Positions 15,264 to 23,832 of a DNA stretch of 64,000 bases are shown piece by piece; position 1 is the first letter of the stretch, and every line of letters starts with the position of its first letter. The notes under the pieces are model-generated. The model saw only the letters and a list, made by a program, of their open reading frames with translations. It was not told the DNA's origin and did no database searches. Source of the stretch: Cavenderia fasciculata (lineage: Eukaryota; Evosea; Eumycetozoa; Acytosteliales; Cavenderiaceae). Where the stretch lies: the NCBI RefSeq assembly GCF_000203815.1, contig NW_004457695.1, forward strand, positions 806,001 through 870,000, written 5' to 3'. The translations under genes and the position numbers were made by a program.

Positions 15264-17609
15264 ATGATAAAGACAACATTTAAAGATTTAATTCGAAATA
15301 AATTGATATTGAGGAGAATCATAGATCATGTGAATATCATTGATATGGTGATGAATCCACCATCACTGGGATGGCTTGTCAAGCAGGGTGGAATAGCAAC
15401 ACCAATCATTCAAGAGTACAAGAGTAGAGTGGCTGGACGACACACAAAACATAGACAAAGAAAAGTGGTTCAGAGAGTACAGAGACAAGAAATCAATCGT
15501 ATCTTTATATCTTGTTACTTTGAAGGAAACGTGTTTCCAGAGTCTTATGGAAGATTGTTAAGATTGGCAGTCAAGTATCACAACTATGAAGTGTTGGAAC
15601 GCTTGATTGGATGGATGCGATATGTTGGAGACTTTAAAAAAAATTCTGGGTACTATGGTCTGACCAACCCATGTATCTTTATTGATACCAAGTCGTCATC
15701 TGCATCATCTGCAGCGTCTGCATCATGGTCTTCGACGAAACGGTATCATTCCTACGACCCGACCATCCACCATATCAACTATGACACGTTGTTTGATTTG
15801 TTTGGGTGTCTCTCTCGAGAACTCAGAAGCTTTGGTCAGTACGACTGGGCAGTTCAAAGTTGGATTGAAACAGCCGTTCAGGTAGGCAACCTGGTAGAGT
15901 TGAAAAAGGCAATCGAGAACGTTACCAGTGCACCTTACCAAATAAAAGGAATCATCGGAACGATATCCTCATACACAATGTCCCATCCAAACTTTACACA
16001 AATATTCAAAGTGTGTTGTAACAATGCAGTGTTGCATCGCAAGGCTGGGTATCTCCCAGACACAGCTGCACCTATCCGACACTATTCATTTGCTTCGTTT
16101 TACGATAGCGCGTCTCATAACATGCTCGCATACCACAAGCAGGCTACTTTATGCGACTTTGACACATTCATGGATATTGTCAATATCAAGGCCGTGTCAC
16201 AGCGGTATGTCAGTAGATTGTTCCAGACCGAGGCATCAGCCTCTCCATCAGCAGCAGCAGAGGGTACACTTGGATTGGATAGTGATATGGCCAATATTTT
16301 AAAGAGGACTGTGCCACTCGAGAACAAAAAAGACAAAAAGTGGCATCTCCAAACAATCCATCCTAGTCGTCTCACGATATCCTCTATCGACAAGTTTATG
16401 GACCCTGACAATGAGTTCAAGGTGAAAGTATCGGTAGATGCAATGATCACGAGTATCATGATGACCCAACAAGATGAAGATGACCAACATCGGTTCTTTG
16501 GCTCAAACAATACAAGTCAACATGAACTCTTGACTCATGTACTATCAACTTATGGATCACAAATACAATCATTTGAGAGGTCGGTATTAGCATCAAAGGA
16601 TCGATTGGATATTGTAAAAGAGATATTAGAGGTGTCCCCAAGTCATCTAAAAATGTCTCTTTACACACTCAAATATTACATTGATTCAAAAAAGGTTTCA
16701 AATGCATTGATTAGATTACTCTTCTCGATGGATAGGATAGACGTGACAACCAAGGGATACTATCTTTTTGATTTAATTGCAAGTGTTGGATCGGTTGATT
16801 TGTTGGATTATGTATATCAAAAGACTATTACCTCCTCCTCGACTACTTCAACCACTTTACTTTATAGTCACTTGACATTGGCAAATGCATGTTTAACAGG
16901 ATCATTAGAGTTGGTGGAATATATTGTGTCGGCAGGCTTGTACATTGATCCAAAGTGCTCAACCAACAATTTCAAGAAATCAATTGCAACCAATCTTTGT
17001 GGTGGTGGCAGTGACGATAAACAAGATGAAAGATTAAATATTCTTTTGTACCTAGAGACCAAGTCTATTTTAAAGATTATGGAAAGTCAAGATATATTTA
17101 ATGTTGCAATTTGCCAAGCATCAAAATACAATCAATTACCAATTGTCACACATCTCTGTAAAAAGGCTGATCGATCGATTGGACCTTGTATATACATTCC
17201 AACGAAAATAGTCAGTTTTGCAGCCACCTATATACAACAAGTTAATAACCCTCTGATTCACAAAGTCTCTCGATCCAACCTCAAAACATTGACCTATATA
17301 TTACAGAGTAATTTCAAATTGACAGGCAACCCAAAACACCCCTCATATGCCCATACCAACGAATACAACCATGCAGCCAACAAACTATTATCATCCCACA
17401 ACTATGACACTCTGGATATATTAATTGCCAAAGAACACAAAACCATCTCTATCTGTTTGTTTTCTCTCATCGCTTCACTCCGCGACAACAACACTAGAGT
17501 CACAGACTACTACAAATACCTTCGTACAACAAGATGGAACAATCAGCGAAACTATGTTGATTATTTTGAACGTCGATATGGATTTATGGTATACAATCCA
17601 AATTATTAA
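15264..17609 (+). CDS. Dictyostelid ankyrin-type repeat family protein
   Basis: Single exon of 781 aa. The N-terminus has the form common in a large dictyostelid family: a short basic helix and then RRIIDHVNIIDMV, followed by a WLVKQGG-like segment. The body consists of degenerate helix-pair repeats in the style of ankyrin repeats (YHNYEVLERLIGWM; ASVGSVDLLDYVYQKT; ACLTGSLELVEYIVSAGLYI; ASKYNQLPIVTHLCKKA). Ser/Ala-rich linkers lie around residues 145-155 and 330-340. No kinase, F-box or membrane segment is obvious. Such families are expanded in dictyostelid genomes and mostly uncharacterised; a protein-binding role is inferred. Codon use is more AT-ending than in DHX15. Confidence 0.7.
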   Translation: MIKTTFKDLIRNKLILRRIIDHVNIIDMVMNPPSLGWLVKQGGIATPIIQEYKSRVAGRHTKHRQRKVVQRVQRQEINRIFISCYFEGNVFPESYGRLLRLAVKYHNYEVLERLIGWMRYVGDFKKNSGYYGLTNPCIFIDTKSSSASSAASASWSSTKRYHSYDPTIHHINYDTLFDLFGCLSRELRSFGQYDWAVQSWIETAVQVGNLVELKKAIENVTSAPYQIKGIIGTISSYTMSHPNFTQIFKVCCNNAVLHRKAGYLPDTAAPIRHYSFASFYDSASHNMLAYHKQATLCDFDTFMDIVNIKAVSQRYVSRLFQTEASASPSAAAEGTLGLDSDMANILKRTVPLENKKDKKWHLQTIHPSRLTISSIDKFMDPDNEFKVKVSVDAMITSIMMTQQDEDDQHRFFGSNNTSQHELLTHVLSTYGSQIQSFERSVLASKDRLDIVKEILEVSPSHLKMSLYTLKYYIDSKKVSNALIRLLFSMDRIDVTTKGYYLFDLIASVGSVDLLDYVYQKTITSSSTTSTTLLYSHLTLANACLTGSLELVEYIVSAGLYIDPKCSTNNFKKSIATNLCGGGSDDKQDERLNILLYLETKSILKIMESQDIFNVAICQASKYNQLPIVTHLCKKADRSIGPCIYIPTKIVSFAATYIQQVNNPLIHKVSRSNLKTLTYILQSNFKLTGNPKHPSYAHTNEYNHAANKLLSSHNYDTLDILIAKEHKTISICLFSLIASLRDNNTRVTDYYKYLRTTRWNNQRNYVDYFERRYGFMVYNPNY

Positions 17610-17792: not shown

Positions 17793-19018
17793 TTAAAATC
17801 CATAACATTCACCTTTATCATTTTGAGCAATGATAGTTGATGGTATTTCACCTAATCTTAGATCCAATTCAGTTATATCGCTTCTAGTGTTGACACTATA
17901 GATGGTTACAATCTTTTGTTTGAGTGCATTGGATAGATGATCGAGGATATTGGCCAGAGTTGGTTGACCGACGACATTGACGTGTTTCAAGGTACTTGGA
18001 TTTTCGTGTGTGAGTACATAGAAATCGTAGCTACCTCTTTTTTGCAAGTCTTCTTCGGTAATGATACCGACCTGCTTGGCAAGTGCGATCTTTTCGGGGT
18101 CACCTTGTTCAATGATACTCAACTTGGCGAGATCTACCAAGCTCTTTGGTTTCTCACCGGTTCTACCCGATTCACCAGTCAACCAATGATATCTAGTTTC
18201 ATTGTTTTGAGTAAATTCTCCAGTTTGTAAATCAATACAAACATTTCGTTCAATGTACAAACCACAACCTTCAATTGAAATATTTTCCGTAAAATAATCT
18301 TCTCCTCCACTTCCTCCAGTTGAATATGATGTAATCCTAAAATTAATTTAAATTAATAAATATTTTGATTGTATTTGATTGTATTTGATTGATTGATTCT
18401 CTCTCTCTCTATCGGTTGTGTGACACATACGTTGCATTATGAATTTCTAGTTCTGTGACACTGGCAATATTGTCCTTGACAATGATAGAGTGTCTAATAA
18501 TAGCATAGGGAAGGATATATCCCGTGGTTGCATATAGACAGAGTGCAGTACCCATTGGTAATTGTTCCACTGTTATAGACTATAGTTGATTGAAATTTAA
18601 ACATTTTTGTTAACAATCATGTGACTAGTAATAATAATAATTGTCTTTTTGTTATACATACTACTTCAGGGGATTGGTTCTTTGAGAATGCATAGATACC
18701 AGTCCAACCCTTTTGATTGTGAAAGATGTTTAGTTTCTTGTTGACGATTCTGGTATTCTTTCCATGTGACGATGGTGAAAATTCAATTGATCTGCCTTCA
18801 TCCTCTGTTTCCTCGTCCTCTTCATCAGATCTACCACGTGGAGAACGACTTCTTCTTCTACCTCCTTTGTTATAGTTATCCTTTTCCTTTTCCTCTGCTT
18901 GTTCATCTAATTGGACACCGATGGTTTGAGCAAAACGCAGTCTTTGTGTTTCAATCGATTGATGGTTCTCTCCTTCATACTCTTCTTTGAGTATATCTAT
19001 TGGTAAGTACATATACAT
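17793..19018 (-). CDS. Hcp-like (T6SS tube family) protein with RS/acidic insert and shared C-terminal domain
   Basis: Exons 19018..18662, 18579..18431 and 18336..17793 (phases 0 and 2) give 349 aa. The N-terminus MYMYLPIDILKEEYEGE matches the first strand of Hcp proteins (MYLKIDG.. in bacteria). An insert of about 60 aa follows that is basic/acidic and SR-rich (GGRRRSRSPRGRSDEEDEE). The Hcp fold then resumes with GWTGIYAFSKNQ, and residues about 172-186 read YSTGGSGGEDYFTENISIE, the most conserved Hcp block. The C-terminal 80 aa (QPTLANILDHLSNAL, VTIYSVNTRSDITEL) resemble the tail of the divergent neighbour at 19466. Bacterial Hcp rings build the type VI secretion tube; a role in an amoeba is unknown. 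No signal peptide. The introns show it is a eukaryotic gene and not contamination. Confidence 0.8.
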
Positions 19019-19465
19019 TCTTGTAAATAAGTAGTCTTTTTAATGTTTATAAAAACAATGATAATATGATGATGGCTGATGTGAAGGATCCTAAGTTTGT
19101 CAAAGTTGTTAATGATGATGATGTACACGACTGAATGAATGGTGGGAATACAAAGATAACAGGAACAAATCAGAATGTGCGAACCAAGAAGAAGATATTT
19201 GGTAAGACAACCGAACCTCCTCCCTATCTCATTGTGTCAATGCCATCGAGTCCCTGAACTAAATTAATTAAAATTACTAGAGAAATGGGTGAGAAAATGA
19301 TTAAAAAAAATAAATAATAAATATCTTGCAAGTTTAATGAACCACCAAGTTTAGTACCTACCTTGACTGTATTTAATCATCAGCTGATTGATGATCTAGT
19401 GTTAAAATTAGATTAGATCAACAAACATATAATAACATACACATTCTTAACAACAAACACAAACA
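19019..19465. promoter_or_regulatory. Shared divergent promoter of the two Hcp-like genes
   Basis: A 447-nt spacer between the outward-facing Hcp-like genes. It includes a more complex segment (about 19075-19260) with no open frame of note, and an AT-rich part near the plus-strand start. A short mirror-like motif, CAGCTGATTGATGATC, occurs near 19381. Co-regulation of the pair is inferred from the layout only. Confidence 0.4.
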
Positions 19466-20511
19466 ATGAAATTAGTACTTTATTTACCAATTGACAAGAC
19501 TACACAAGAGATTCAAACCATCCCAACCTTTGAATCGACCAAAGAAGCATTGGTTGCAGCTCTCAAAGCTGATGAACCAGCCAACGAAGAACCAGCTCCA
19601 CAACAAGGATGGGGTAACAACAACCAAACACCCGCTGAAAGAAACTTTAAGAGATTCCACAGTCAATGGTACGATGTATTGGCCTATTCTCATGGTTCCT
19701 CTTCTGGCAGCGTTCAAGCTTTTGTATGTTTCTCTCGAAAAATAATATATTATTATTATTATTGTTAAATCAAATTAACTTACTTTATTTGTTATTTATT
19801 TATTTATATTTATTTATTTAGTCAATGACTGGATATACAAGTGAATTAACACCAATTCTTGAAATGATGGTAATTAGAGGTGATATTCTACCATTTGCCA
19901 TATTCAGAGTATTCCAAAAGATGACTGGAAACAAACTTAGTATTCTTGAATACGAACTCAAGAATGTTGCTGTTTCATCGGTTAGTACTGGTGGATCGGG
20001 TGGTGAAGACCGTTTTACAGAGAACATCACCTTGGAGGCACAAGAGATCACTCACAAGATTATCAACATTGACACTGATACATTGGAATACAATAGTTAT
20101 AGTTCTGCCACATTCAACAACAAAAAGAAGGAGTTTTCTCGTACCATCTCTACCGCCAATGCTCGTGATGCCTTGGGAGGTCTCGAAATAACCCAATCAT
20201 TTGACTTTTCAGTACCAGAGAATGCAAAGAAGGCTGCCGACTTGGGTCTTGGTCGTGTCACTATGGAACACCAGTTTTCAGTACAAATCAACAAGTCACC
20301 AAACATTTTCAAAAAGATTGATTTGGAACAACCAACTCTCGTTAACCTCAAATCAAAGATTGCTAAAATTTATAATCGTCCAGAGACTGACATTGTATCT
20401 GTCTATGGTGCCGATGGTTTTGAACTCGAAAGTGATAAGGATGTTACTTCTTCGGTTGAAAATGTTGTTTTTGTAAAATATGTTGATGGTACTTATAGTT
20501 CTTTAAATTAA
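19466..20511 (+). CDS. Hcp-like (T6SS tube family) protein with C-terminal beta-grasp-like domain
   Basis: Exons 19466..19723 and 19822..20511 (phase 0, GTATGT...TTTAG) give 315 aa. Three blocks match the order in bacterial Hcp: KLVLYLPIDK (first strand), WYDVLAYSHGSSSGS (Hcp IDVLSWSWG..SQSG) and LKNVAVSSVSTGGSGGEDR followed by FTENITLE at residues about 133-157. Bacterial Hcp is about 160-170 aa and ends soon after this block. Here about 160 more residues follow, ending in a ubiquitin/CIDE-N-like strand-helix pattern (PTLVNLKSKIAKIYNRPETD, VSVYGADGFELESD) also present in the neighbouring gene. No signal peptide or membrane segment. A short Glu/Gln-rich insert lies near residue 40 where the minus-strand paralogue carries its long charged insert. 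Function in the amoeba is unknown; a bacterial origin is inferred. Confidence 0.85.
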
Positions 20512-20703: not shown

Positions 20704-22227
20704 CTATTTAACTAAAGTTTCTCCAATAAGAGCATCAAATGCATAACGATTTCTTTTGGCTTGTTTGGATTTCTTATTGTCTGGTTTGACCTTGATATGA
20801 ACATTTCTAATATGTCTTTTCAAAGCTTCCTTATTTTTAAATTTACGTTTGCAAATTCTTTCATCCTCCTCTTCTTCTATCTCTTCTTCTTTCTTTTCCT
20901 CTTCTTTTGGTTTTGGAACTTCTTTTTCCTCCTCTTCCTCTTCTTCCTCTTTTTCAATCTTTACCTTTGGTAGTATTTGATTTATCTTATTATTATTATT
21001 ATTTGGTTGACTATTTCTACATGGTTGTTCATTATTATTATTATTATTATTAATATTATTTACATTATCTACATCCTCTTCTTCCTCCTCTTCATTATCT
21101 TCATCTATTTCACTATTATCACCTTCACGTTCACTATCATCACCTTCCTCTTCTTCTTCTTCTTTTCCTTTTGGTTGATGTCGTTTGGATTCTCTTTTTT
21201 CCTTGCGAGTAAGTCTAGTTGGAGGAACTGCCATTTTATCACGATGTTGGACTGGTTTGATAGTTGACAAGAGTTGTGAATTATCGCCGTTGGAGTTGAG
21301 TTTCCACGTGCAAGAGTATGTGATACCAAGATGAGCAGATTCGACGTGCTGTTCGAGATACTTTTTACGAGTGTACGAGCATAGACATCCCTCGTATGTG
21401 CAATGGTATTTGTGACGCTCACCCATATTTTGTTCGTGTGTGGCCACATGTTGTTCGAGTTGTGAGGCAGTCTGACTAAACTTGCCACAGACATAACACT
21501 TGAACTGTGTCTTGTGTGCTTCACGTCGATGTTTGAGCAGATCAAAGTAGCGACAAAAACCCTCGTCGCACACCTCGCACAGATACTCTGCCTTTTTCTT
21601 GTGTACACCTTCAACGTGTGTCTTGAGTTGCGATGGATACTCGAATCGCTTGTCGCAGCCATCATGGGTGCACTCGTAGGGCAGTTGGTTGAGATGCACC
21701 ACTGCAACGTGTCTCTTGAGATGGTTGTGTTTGACAAATGCCATGTCACACGATTCATGGTCACATTTGAACGGACGTTCCTTGAGATGATGCACAGTGA
21801 TGTGGTTCTTGAGATGGTGCTTGAGTTTGAACTTGAGTCCGCAGCCATCATACTCGCACTCGAATGGTGTCTCTTGTGTATGTGTCTTGATGTGGTATCG
21901 AAGGTAATGTGCTCTTGCAAACGACGCTTCACACCCTTTATAAGTGCATGCGTACGGTTTCTCACCCGTATGACTACGGATATGATACTCTAGCTTGGCT
22001 TGACGATTATATCGATTATCACATCCCTGATAAGGACACAAAAATCTCTTTTCAGAATGATCTATCTTTGTTCTTGCAACCGCTGGTTGTGTTGATGACT
22101 GTGATGTCACATTATCACCACTTGATTTCTTTCTTTTTATCTTTGGTTCTTCTACTTTATCTTCTTCCTCTTCCTCATCCTCTTCTTCGTCATTAGTAGT
22201 ATCCATACAACTACTAGTGTCACCTAG

Positions 22228-22258
<31 letters not shown>

Positions 22259-22458
22259 CGATGTTGTTGTCGCAATTTATTGACTTCATCCTCTGAGCAA
22301 AATGGGTCGATGACTACTCTACAATCGTGAATGTGTTGGTGGTGGTGGTCGTCGTCTCCATCGGTATCACTATTATTCTCAATCGCATCTTTGAAACTTC
22401 TCTTTAGTAATGTTGTTGTTGCTGTAGTAGAAGATGTCGAGGCTGTTGAAGTCACCAT
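20704..22458 (-). CDS. gtf3A: Transcription factor IIIA-like C2H2 zinc-finger protein
   Basis: Single exon of 584 aa. TFIIIA binds the 5S rRNA gene and 5S RNA and recruits RNA polymerase III. After an acidic, Gln-rich N-terminus (about 1-130), eight C2H2 fingers run from about residue 138 to 395: CPYQGCDNRY, CTYKGCEASF, CEYDGCGLKF, CDHESCDMAF, CTHDGCDKRF, CEVCDEGF, CYVCGKF and CTYEGCLCSY. Finger 6 with its short C-x2-C spacing and the linker pattern fit TFIIIA. A long acidic, Asn-rich segment of about 140 aa follows, then one more finger-like helix (FKNKEALKRHIRNVH) that retains a single visible cysteine (ICKRKF). Yeast TFIIIA also has a long spacer before finger 9, so this may be a degenerate ninth finger. 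The basic C-terminus resembles a nuclear localisation signal. Confidence 0.88.
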
Positions 22459-23832
22459 TTGCGAGAGATATCTCTATCTATCTATCTATATCTATCCTCT
22501 TTGTAAATTTAATTAATGAAACCTTGAGTTTAATCAACCCATCGAACCAAACTCGTTTCCCTCATCCCTCCAACCAAACTAGTTTTTTCGTTTTTTTTCA
22601 ATCGTTTTTTTTTTTTTTTTTTTTCTAAAAGAATCTCGATTTTCAAACGAAACGACACTCTCATCCATCTATGACCCCTCCCTCTCCTTCCTTTATCCAT
22701 CATATAATTTTAATACTATACTTATACCATTGAACTATTTTATCTCTTTCAGTGTATGGTACAACTATGAGTTTATAACTTATTAGTATAACTCATCGTA
22801 ATCAGTGCAGGATGGCTAACTCTGTGAGGATTGTTTTCAATGAACTCTTTCATAAGATTCGCAGCTCTGTTTTTTTGTGTTGGTTTTTTTTTGCAATCAA
22901 CAGTTGATTTCAACCGACAGTGTGGGGATGGCAAAGAGTGGAGGAGGGTGCCTCCCCTCAAAAGAATAATTCAAATAAAAAATCAAAGATTCTTTTTTTT
23001 TTTTTGAACAAGTTAGCCCTCTCAAAGAGTGTGTGATTTCCGTCATTCCACATCTATCTATCTCTCTGTTTTGTTCTTTTTATCTCTCTATCTATCTATA
23101 TTCTTTATATCTTTCTTCTTTTCCCTTTTCTTCTTTGTTGTTTAAAGATTATTTAAATCAAACATACACAAAGAGGGATCGTGATTCGATTGTTGTACTA
23201 CGACAATACGATATAACCAACTACAATATAGATATAAATATTTAGATATTTAGTTTTTTTACGGATCATCATCGAGAAGAGATAAACAACGTTGTTGTTA
23301 TAAACAAACTGTGTTTATCTTTTTTTCATAATAGCCATTGTATTTTTTCATCACACACTTATTTTTCAAGATCTGTGACGATCGGTTTTCATCAAAACTA
23401 CTCTATTTCTAGAACCAAATTCTTTTCTTTTCTCTCAATATCTATACGCTACGCAACGCAATAGTTTCAAAAAGAAAGGAATTCTTTTCATTTTTAAAAA
23501 AAAAACAAAACAACTTATCTCTTTTTTTTTTTTTTTCTTTATTTATCCTTTTCGTTGTATTATTAACCTCTCATCATCTTCATTACCATCAACCCCACCA
23601 CTAACTACTATTTGTAAATAAACCACCACACACACACAATCCCTCATCGTATCTCACAATCCCATTTTTTCATTTGAAATTTCAATTCACAGCAAATCAA
23701 GCCACCATTCCGATAACCACCAAACCAACAAGATAAGATAATAAGTTCTACTGATCACACTACTACTACAACAACAATAGAAACAGAAACAACAATCTTT
23801 TGTTTTTTAAAAAGAGTTAACTTTTGCAAAAG
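22459..23832. promoter_or_regulatory. Long divergent regulatory region between TFIIIA and pkbA
   Basis: A spacer of 1.37 kb, long for this genome. The plus strand is pyrimidine-rich, with T runs of 10 to about 20 at 22600-22625, 22990-23010 and 23520-23540, and CTAT repeats near 22475-22495 and 23045-23100. CACACACACA occurs at about 23625. Some of it should be 5' UTR of pkbA. No coding sequence is supported. Confidence 0.5.

Follow-up and report, generated by a model that had tools for sequence, protein, structure and literature searches.

A dispersed, intron-bearing gene family related to the bacterial type VI secretion tube protein in Cavenderia fasciculata

How did genes resembling Hcp (TssD), the tube protein of the bacterial type VI secretion system (T6SS), come to lie as spliced genes in an amoeba? 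The question is raised by a 64,000-nucleotide stretch of the Cavenderia fasciculata genome (positions 806001–870000 of contig C14; assembly 31.0 Mb, 21 contigs), hereafter the window. An initial annotation had placed a divergent pair of genes with Hcp motifs and in-frame GT..AG introns there, and both genes were recovered: we built exon models with which the database proteins agree, and the quoted Hcp motifs are present in each. By protein database and taxonomy look-up, these are DFA_07905 on the plus strand and DFA_07904 on the minus strand. Sequence comparisons support the Hcp homology of a C. fasciculata gene family that includes this pair, and its descent from the bacterial T6SS tube protein.

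The evidence for homology begins with DFA_07905, which matches the Pfam profile T6SS_HCP (PF05638) with an E-value of 5e-8 and 33.7 bits (cut-off 23.5), and P. aeruginosa Hcp1 (PDB 1y12) in a phmmer search with an E-value of 3.1e-12. Its predicted fold is the Hcp β-barrel with a side helix. The profile and structure comparisons suggested in the initial annotation thus bear out the assignment of this protein. The same profile comparison failed for DFA_07904, which alone has no significant Pfam match and no T6SS_HCP match at E ≤ 10; its Hcp identity follows from its paralogy to DFA_07905, to which it aligns in BLASTP with an E-value of 3e-20 and 31% identity over 226 alignment positions. The T6SS_HCP label of DFA_07905 is already precomputed in a protein collection, so there is nothing new in the domain match as such; NCBIfam assigns no family to either protein.

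Both genes keep their reading frame across introns that are all of the GT..AG type. DFA_07905 encodes 315 residues in two exons (19466–19723 and 19822–20511) separated by a 98 bp phase 0 intron (19724–19821, GTATGT..TTTAG). The first exon contains the first barrel strand (MKLVLYLPID), a 52-residue insert and strand 2 (WYDVLAYSHG), and the second encodes the remaining Hcp barrel (STGGSGGEDRFTENITL), a linker and a C-terminal domain (residues 232–315; 20257–20508) before the stop. DFA_07904 encodes 349 residues in three exons. Exon 1 (19018–18662) carries the first strand (MYMYLPID), an acidic and Arg-rich insert of 89 residues and strand 2, exon 2 (18579–18431) the middle of the barrel, and exon 3 (18336–17793) the STGGSGGEDYFTENI block, a linker, the C-terminal domain (residues 262–349; 17796–18059) and the stop. 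Its first intron (18580–18661, phase 0) aligns in one column with the intron of DFA_07905, and its second (18337–18430, phase 2) shares a column with two paralogs, C14d and C2. The 447 bp between the divergent starts (19019–19465) is presumably a shared promoter region.

Searches of the C. fasciculata genome with both window proteins, and then with two paralogs, returned eleven family loci, named here by contig: four on C14 (the window genes C14a and C14b, that is DFA_07905 and DFA_07904, C14d at 712.8 kb and C14c at 3.389 Mb), two on C4 (C4a and C4b) and one each on C15, C3, C16, C12 and C2. Nine of the eleven match some query clearly. The head-to-head pair exists as first described but belongs to a set of eleven scattered genes, of which two have weak scores, and the sequences support duplication and dispersal within this genome. 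The eight full models share one order of first strand, insert, strand 2, remaining barrel, linker and C-terminal domain (the C14c and C2 models are incomplete at the start). In ten genes the phase 0 intron 1 sits directly before a strand starting S/T-M-T or similar. It falls in one alignment column in seven genes; in C4b and C2 the aligner put it 18 columns further, past a gap, with flanks that match by eye, its place in C14c was taken from the DNA, and in C14d it is absent. A further candidate at C12:439805 (L118) was rejected because its match is weak (E 0.58) and its frames are unlike the family.

T6SS_HCP scans covered the eight full models and C14d. Besides DFA_07905, the cut-off is passed by C3 (50.3 bits) and C16 (34.3 bits), and C4a scores 17.2 bits, below it. 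C12, C15 and C14d show no match at E ≤ 0.1, and C4b shows none at E ≤ 1, by count (four of eight members matched).

The database protein for DFA_07904 agrees with our model, and that for DFA_07905 is 99% identical but has a different 3′ end: in the database model (P0001) the last 11 residues differ, apparently through an extra predicted intron (window 20488–20511). Read straight to the stop, DFA_07905 ends ...VDGTYSSLN, which resembles the DG-containing ends of C3, C16 and C4a, so the annotated end is probably wrong. The end of the database protein DFA_04391 (P0033) is likewise unlike our model of C4b (L023).

The C-terminal domain is probably ubiquitin-like. A single-sequence model of the DFA_07905 domain predicts a β-grasp fold, with likenesses to the CIDE-N domain of DREP2, UFM1 and ISG15, and by profile to GRHL1_C, PB1 and Ubiquitin_5. 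These matches are weak or below cut-off (GRHL1_C, 22.8 bits against 27, P0038; PB1, 16.4 bits against 23.6 with the whole of C4a; the remainder weak), and different family members match different families. The domain of DFA_07904 has the corresponding position and a weak likeness. A pairwise alignment of the two window domains placed them in conflict with the eight-gene alignment and was not used. Head-to-tail assembly is a property of CIDE-N and PB1 domains, and it would fit a platform that assembles itself if the domain belongs to either subfamily.

The window genes had also been credited with the order and spacing of bacterial Hcp motifs; the order holds and the spacing does not. The inserts of 52 and 89 residues follow the first strand, and L2,3, the loop that joins strands 2 and 3, has 6 residues in DFA_07905 and 4 in DFA_07904, against about 20 usually. 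Its length is 16–29 residues in all 38 bacterial Hcps and 10–27 in the six other family genes measured. L2,3 is the ring-stacking loop, a role described for one bacterial Hcp (PMC4650826). Since this loop is lost, tube formation by the window pair is unlikely. We also searched the genome, in six frames and exon by exon, for two T6SS partner families, the sheath (VipB) and the spike (Phage_GPD of VgrG); neither gave a match at E ≤ 1, and an E. coli control was positive for both.

The comparison with P. aeruginosa Hcp1 summarizes these changes. DFA_07905 shares with it the barrel fold and the block VSSVSTGGSGGEDR.TEN.TL. Hcp1 lacks the insert after strand 1, the added C-terminal domain and the introns, and its stacking loop is long (as measured on other Hcp1-type sequences) where that of the window pair is short. 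Moreover, Hcp1 works within a T6SS, the two sought components of which were missing here.

The explanation we favour, at even chances, is an expanded family derived from bacterial Hcp, in which the Hcp barrel forms a probable ring displaying C-terminal domains and inserts, with no T6SS-like tube. The sequences support descent from a bacterial Hcp/TssD gene, spliceosomal introns, the insert after the first strand, the added and probably ubiquitin-like domain, and duplication with scattering to the eleven loci. The protein would be cytosolic (no hydrophobic N-terminal leader is visible by eye) and would fold as an Hcp barrel. Ring association would probably be kept, with the C-terminal domains and inserts displayed as a binding platform, and T6SS-like stacking would be lost, because the window pair has lost the loop and neither of the partner families sought is present.

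Several observations weigh against this explanation. Five of the eight full models, and C14d, miss the T6SS_HCP cut-off. Two loci match weakly (C14d, E 0.002; C2, E 0.16), and their membership rests on reading frames, on inspection by eye and on where their introns lie. No C-terminal domain can be recognised in C14d, and the GGSGG turn is lost in C4b (L023), C14c (L115) and C2 (L117), which keep open frames and intron 1; that loss may reflect rapid divergence or decay within the family, and together with the missing domain of C14d it indicates that some members may be decaying. Five model versions of the DFA_07905 C-terminal domain range in predicted local distance difference test (pLDDT) score from 70 down to 41, and the modelled domain has no Foldseek match at E ≤ 0.001. 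Finally, an L2,3 of 20–27 residues is kept in three of the eight genes measured (C15, C12 and C4b), and the loop has 14 residues in C3 and 16 in C16, so the loss of stacking cannot be generalised past the window pair.

A more specific form of the ring explanation, which we put forward tentatively and as less likely than not, is that Hcp hexamers freed from tube building became eukaryote-specific ring platforms. Each subunit would contribute an insert, either charged or rich in Arg and Gly, along with a CIDE-N/PB1-like ubiquitin-like domain, and mixed rings of up to eleven paralogs would serve as a modular scaffold, possibly against T6SS-bearing prey. The barrel may instead have been domesticated as a monomer, a rigid carrier of insert and C-terminal domain that forms no ring. 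The strongly altered loops and inserts, and the match of DFA_07904 to Hcp through its paralog only, fit such a carrier; the fold predicted for DFA_07905 and the turn conserved in several members speak against it, and we regard it as possible but doubtful.

Where the founding gene came from bears on a further alternative. With a profile of the eight genes, the best PDB sequence match is 9qpe (the Hcp3–Tce1 complex of P. aeruginosa; E 7e-20), and C3 and C16 come close to repeating its block IMSYSHNVA..HVGEF.LTKF..SVSGGAGGKPVETLSL. Among bacterial Hcps, the Hcp3 type is the nearest to several members. The pattern MSYSHNVA..HIGEF..TKF..SVSGG.GGKPVETLSL of Hcp3 and its Pseudomonas, Iodobacter and Paraburkholderia relatives is common to C3 and C16 and in part to C4a, whereas the window pair has a GGED-type turn instead; the Hcp1-type turn GGSGGED is carried by the window genes and C15. 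Unlike the C. fasciculata family, the Hcp3-type proteins (about 165 residues) have no insert, added domain or introns.

A contig scan with the patterns [VF]MS[FY]SHN[VC] and NYF[CS][LQ]K[NK][EM], which is biased to Hcp3-like genes, gave 83 relatives in 295 pattern matches, with 40–45% identity to the Hcp part of C3. Eighty were kept, 72 from Pseudomonas and eight from elsewhere (Iodobacter, Paraburkholderia, Janthinobacterium, Andreprevotia and two Proteobacteria records without further classification). A profile search with less bias, over 200 genomes from the phylum of Pseudomonas fontis, also puts this type first. Eight genomes matched: the best matches of four, at 69–78 bits, are Hcp3-type (one is P. 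fontis, the genome of L024), and the other matches scored 30–54 bits. Two scans of viral contigs found relatives in 0 of 30 stretches and 0 of 1, a result of little weight because the peptide patterns were narrow. Among named eukaryotes only C. fasciculata matched (2 of 10, 1 of 31 and 3 of 14 hits), in searches one of which recovered just three of the eleven family genes, so that absence elsewhere is not implied.

A tree built from 46 Hcp domains separates the 38 bacterial sequences from the eight of C. fasciculata with support of 100/100; its internal order is weak. The homology, the introns and this split make transfer from bacteria followed by duplication, as the initial annotation proposed, the best reading. 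The tree does not decide the donor type, because the approximately unbiased (AU) test accepts a single origin beside the Hcp3-type (p 0.68) and the Hcp1-type (p 0.29) alike. A mosaic family from two sources would derive C14a, C14b and C15 from, or by recombination with, an Hcp1-type gene, and C3, C4a, C16 and C12 from an Hcp3-type gene. Profile log-odds do favour the Hcp1-type for the first set (−65 to −103) and the Hcp3-type for the second (+21 to +30), the tip motifs differ, and two forced origins are not rejected (AU p 0.072). They are, however, worse by 27.5 log units than a single origin, the 100/100 split speaks against them, and intron 1, insert and C-terminal domain are common to the eight genes. 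The log-odds score is also noisy: C4b leans to the Hcp1 side overall (−28) despite its match with C12 at E 1.4e-44, as does the final segment in C3, C4a and C16 (−18 to −22), so the sets separate in total and not in every part. Two sources are therefore unlikely; given the shared intron, insert and C-terminal domain, one acquisition is likelier, though genes may have recombined later or a second source may have contributed.

A role in defence, in which amoeba Hcps bind incoming bacterial Hcp, its effectors or VgrG as decoys and so poison or sense a T6SS attack by prey bacteria, is a fair guess, though quite improbable in our estimate. The bacterial-type turn STGGSGGED is identical letter for letter in DFA_07905 and DFA_07904, the family is multi-copy and diverging, and most of the Hcp3-like loci kept above belong to Pseudomonas, soil bacteria met by amoebae; the inserts and the C-terminal domain, however, require no such role. 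Bacterial contamination or a chance motif was rejected as next to impossible, being contradicted by the introns, dispersed loci, large contigs, and T6SS_HCP and fold matches.

Elsewhere in the window, the pair is flanked by a multi-finger C2H2 protein gene (20707–22473, minus strand) and by an open frame of 781 residues (15264–17606, plus strand) without a Pfam match at E 0.001. Rfam at gathering scores gave no match anywhere in the window. Just upstream of paralog C3, an open frame (L019:2-697, plus strand) encodes a PARP catalytic domain (PF00644, E 2.2e-26).

Bacteria, archaea and phages are known to have parts of contractile injection machines. In the open-access literature, the titles and abstract starts among the matches listed contain no eukaryotic Hcp, no such Hcp fusion and no mention of this family; eukaryotic uptake of a different toxin-derived domain is mentioned in one paper (PMC3482391). 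Our data suggest that part of a bacterial weapon was taken over by a eukaryote and reshaped. A eukaryotic family that derives from the tube protein, has expanded and bears introns would illustrate such reuse clearly. The family raises the questions of what a ring protein does without a tube, and whether predators of bacteria turned T6SS parts on their owners. C. fasciculata can be cultured, and ring formation and function are thus directly testable.
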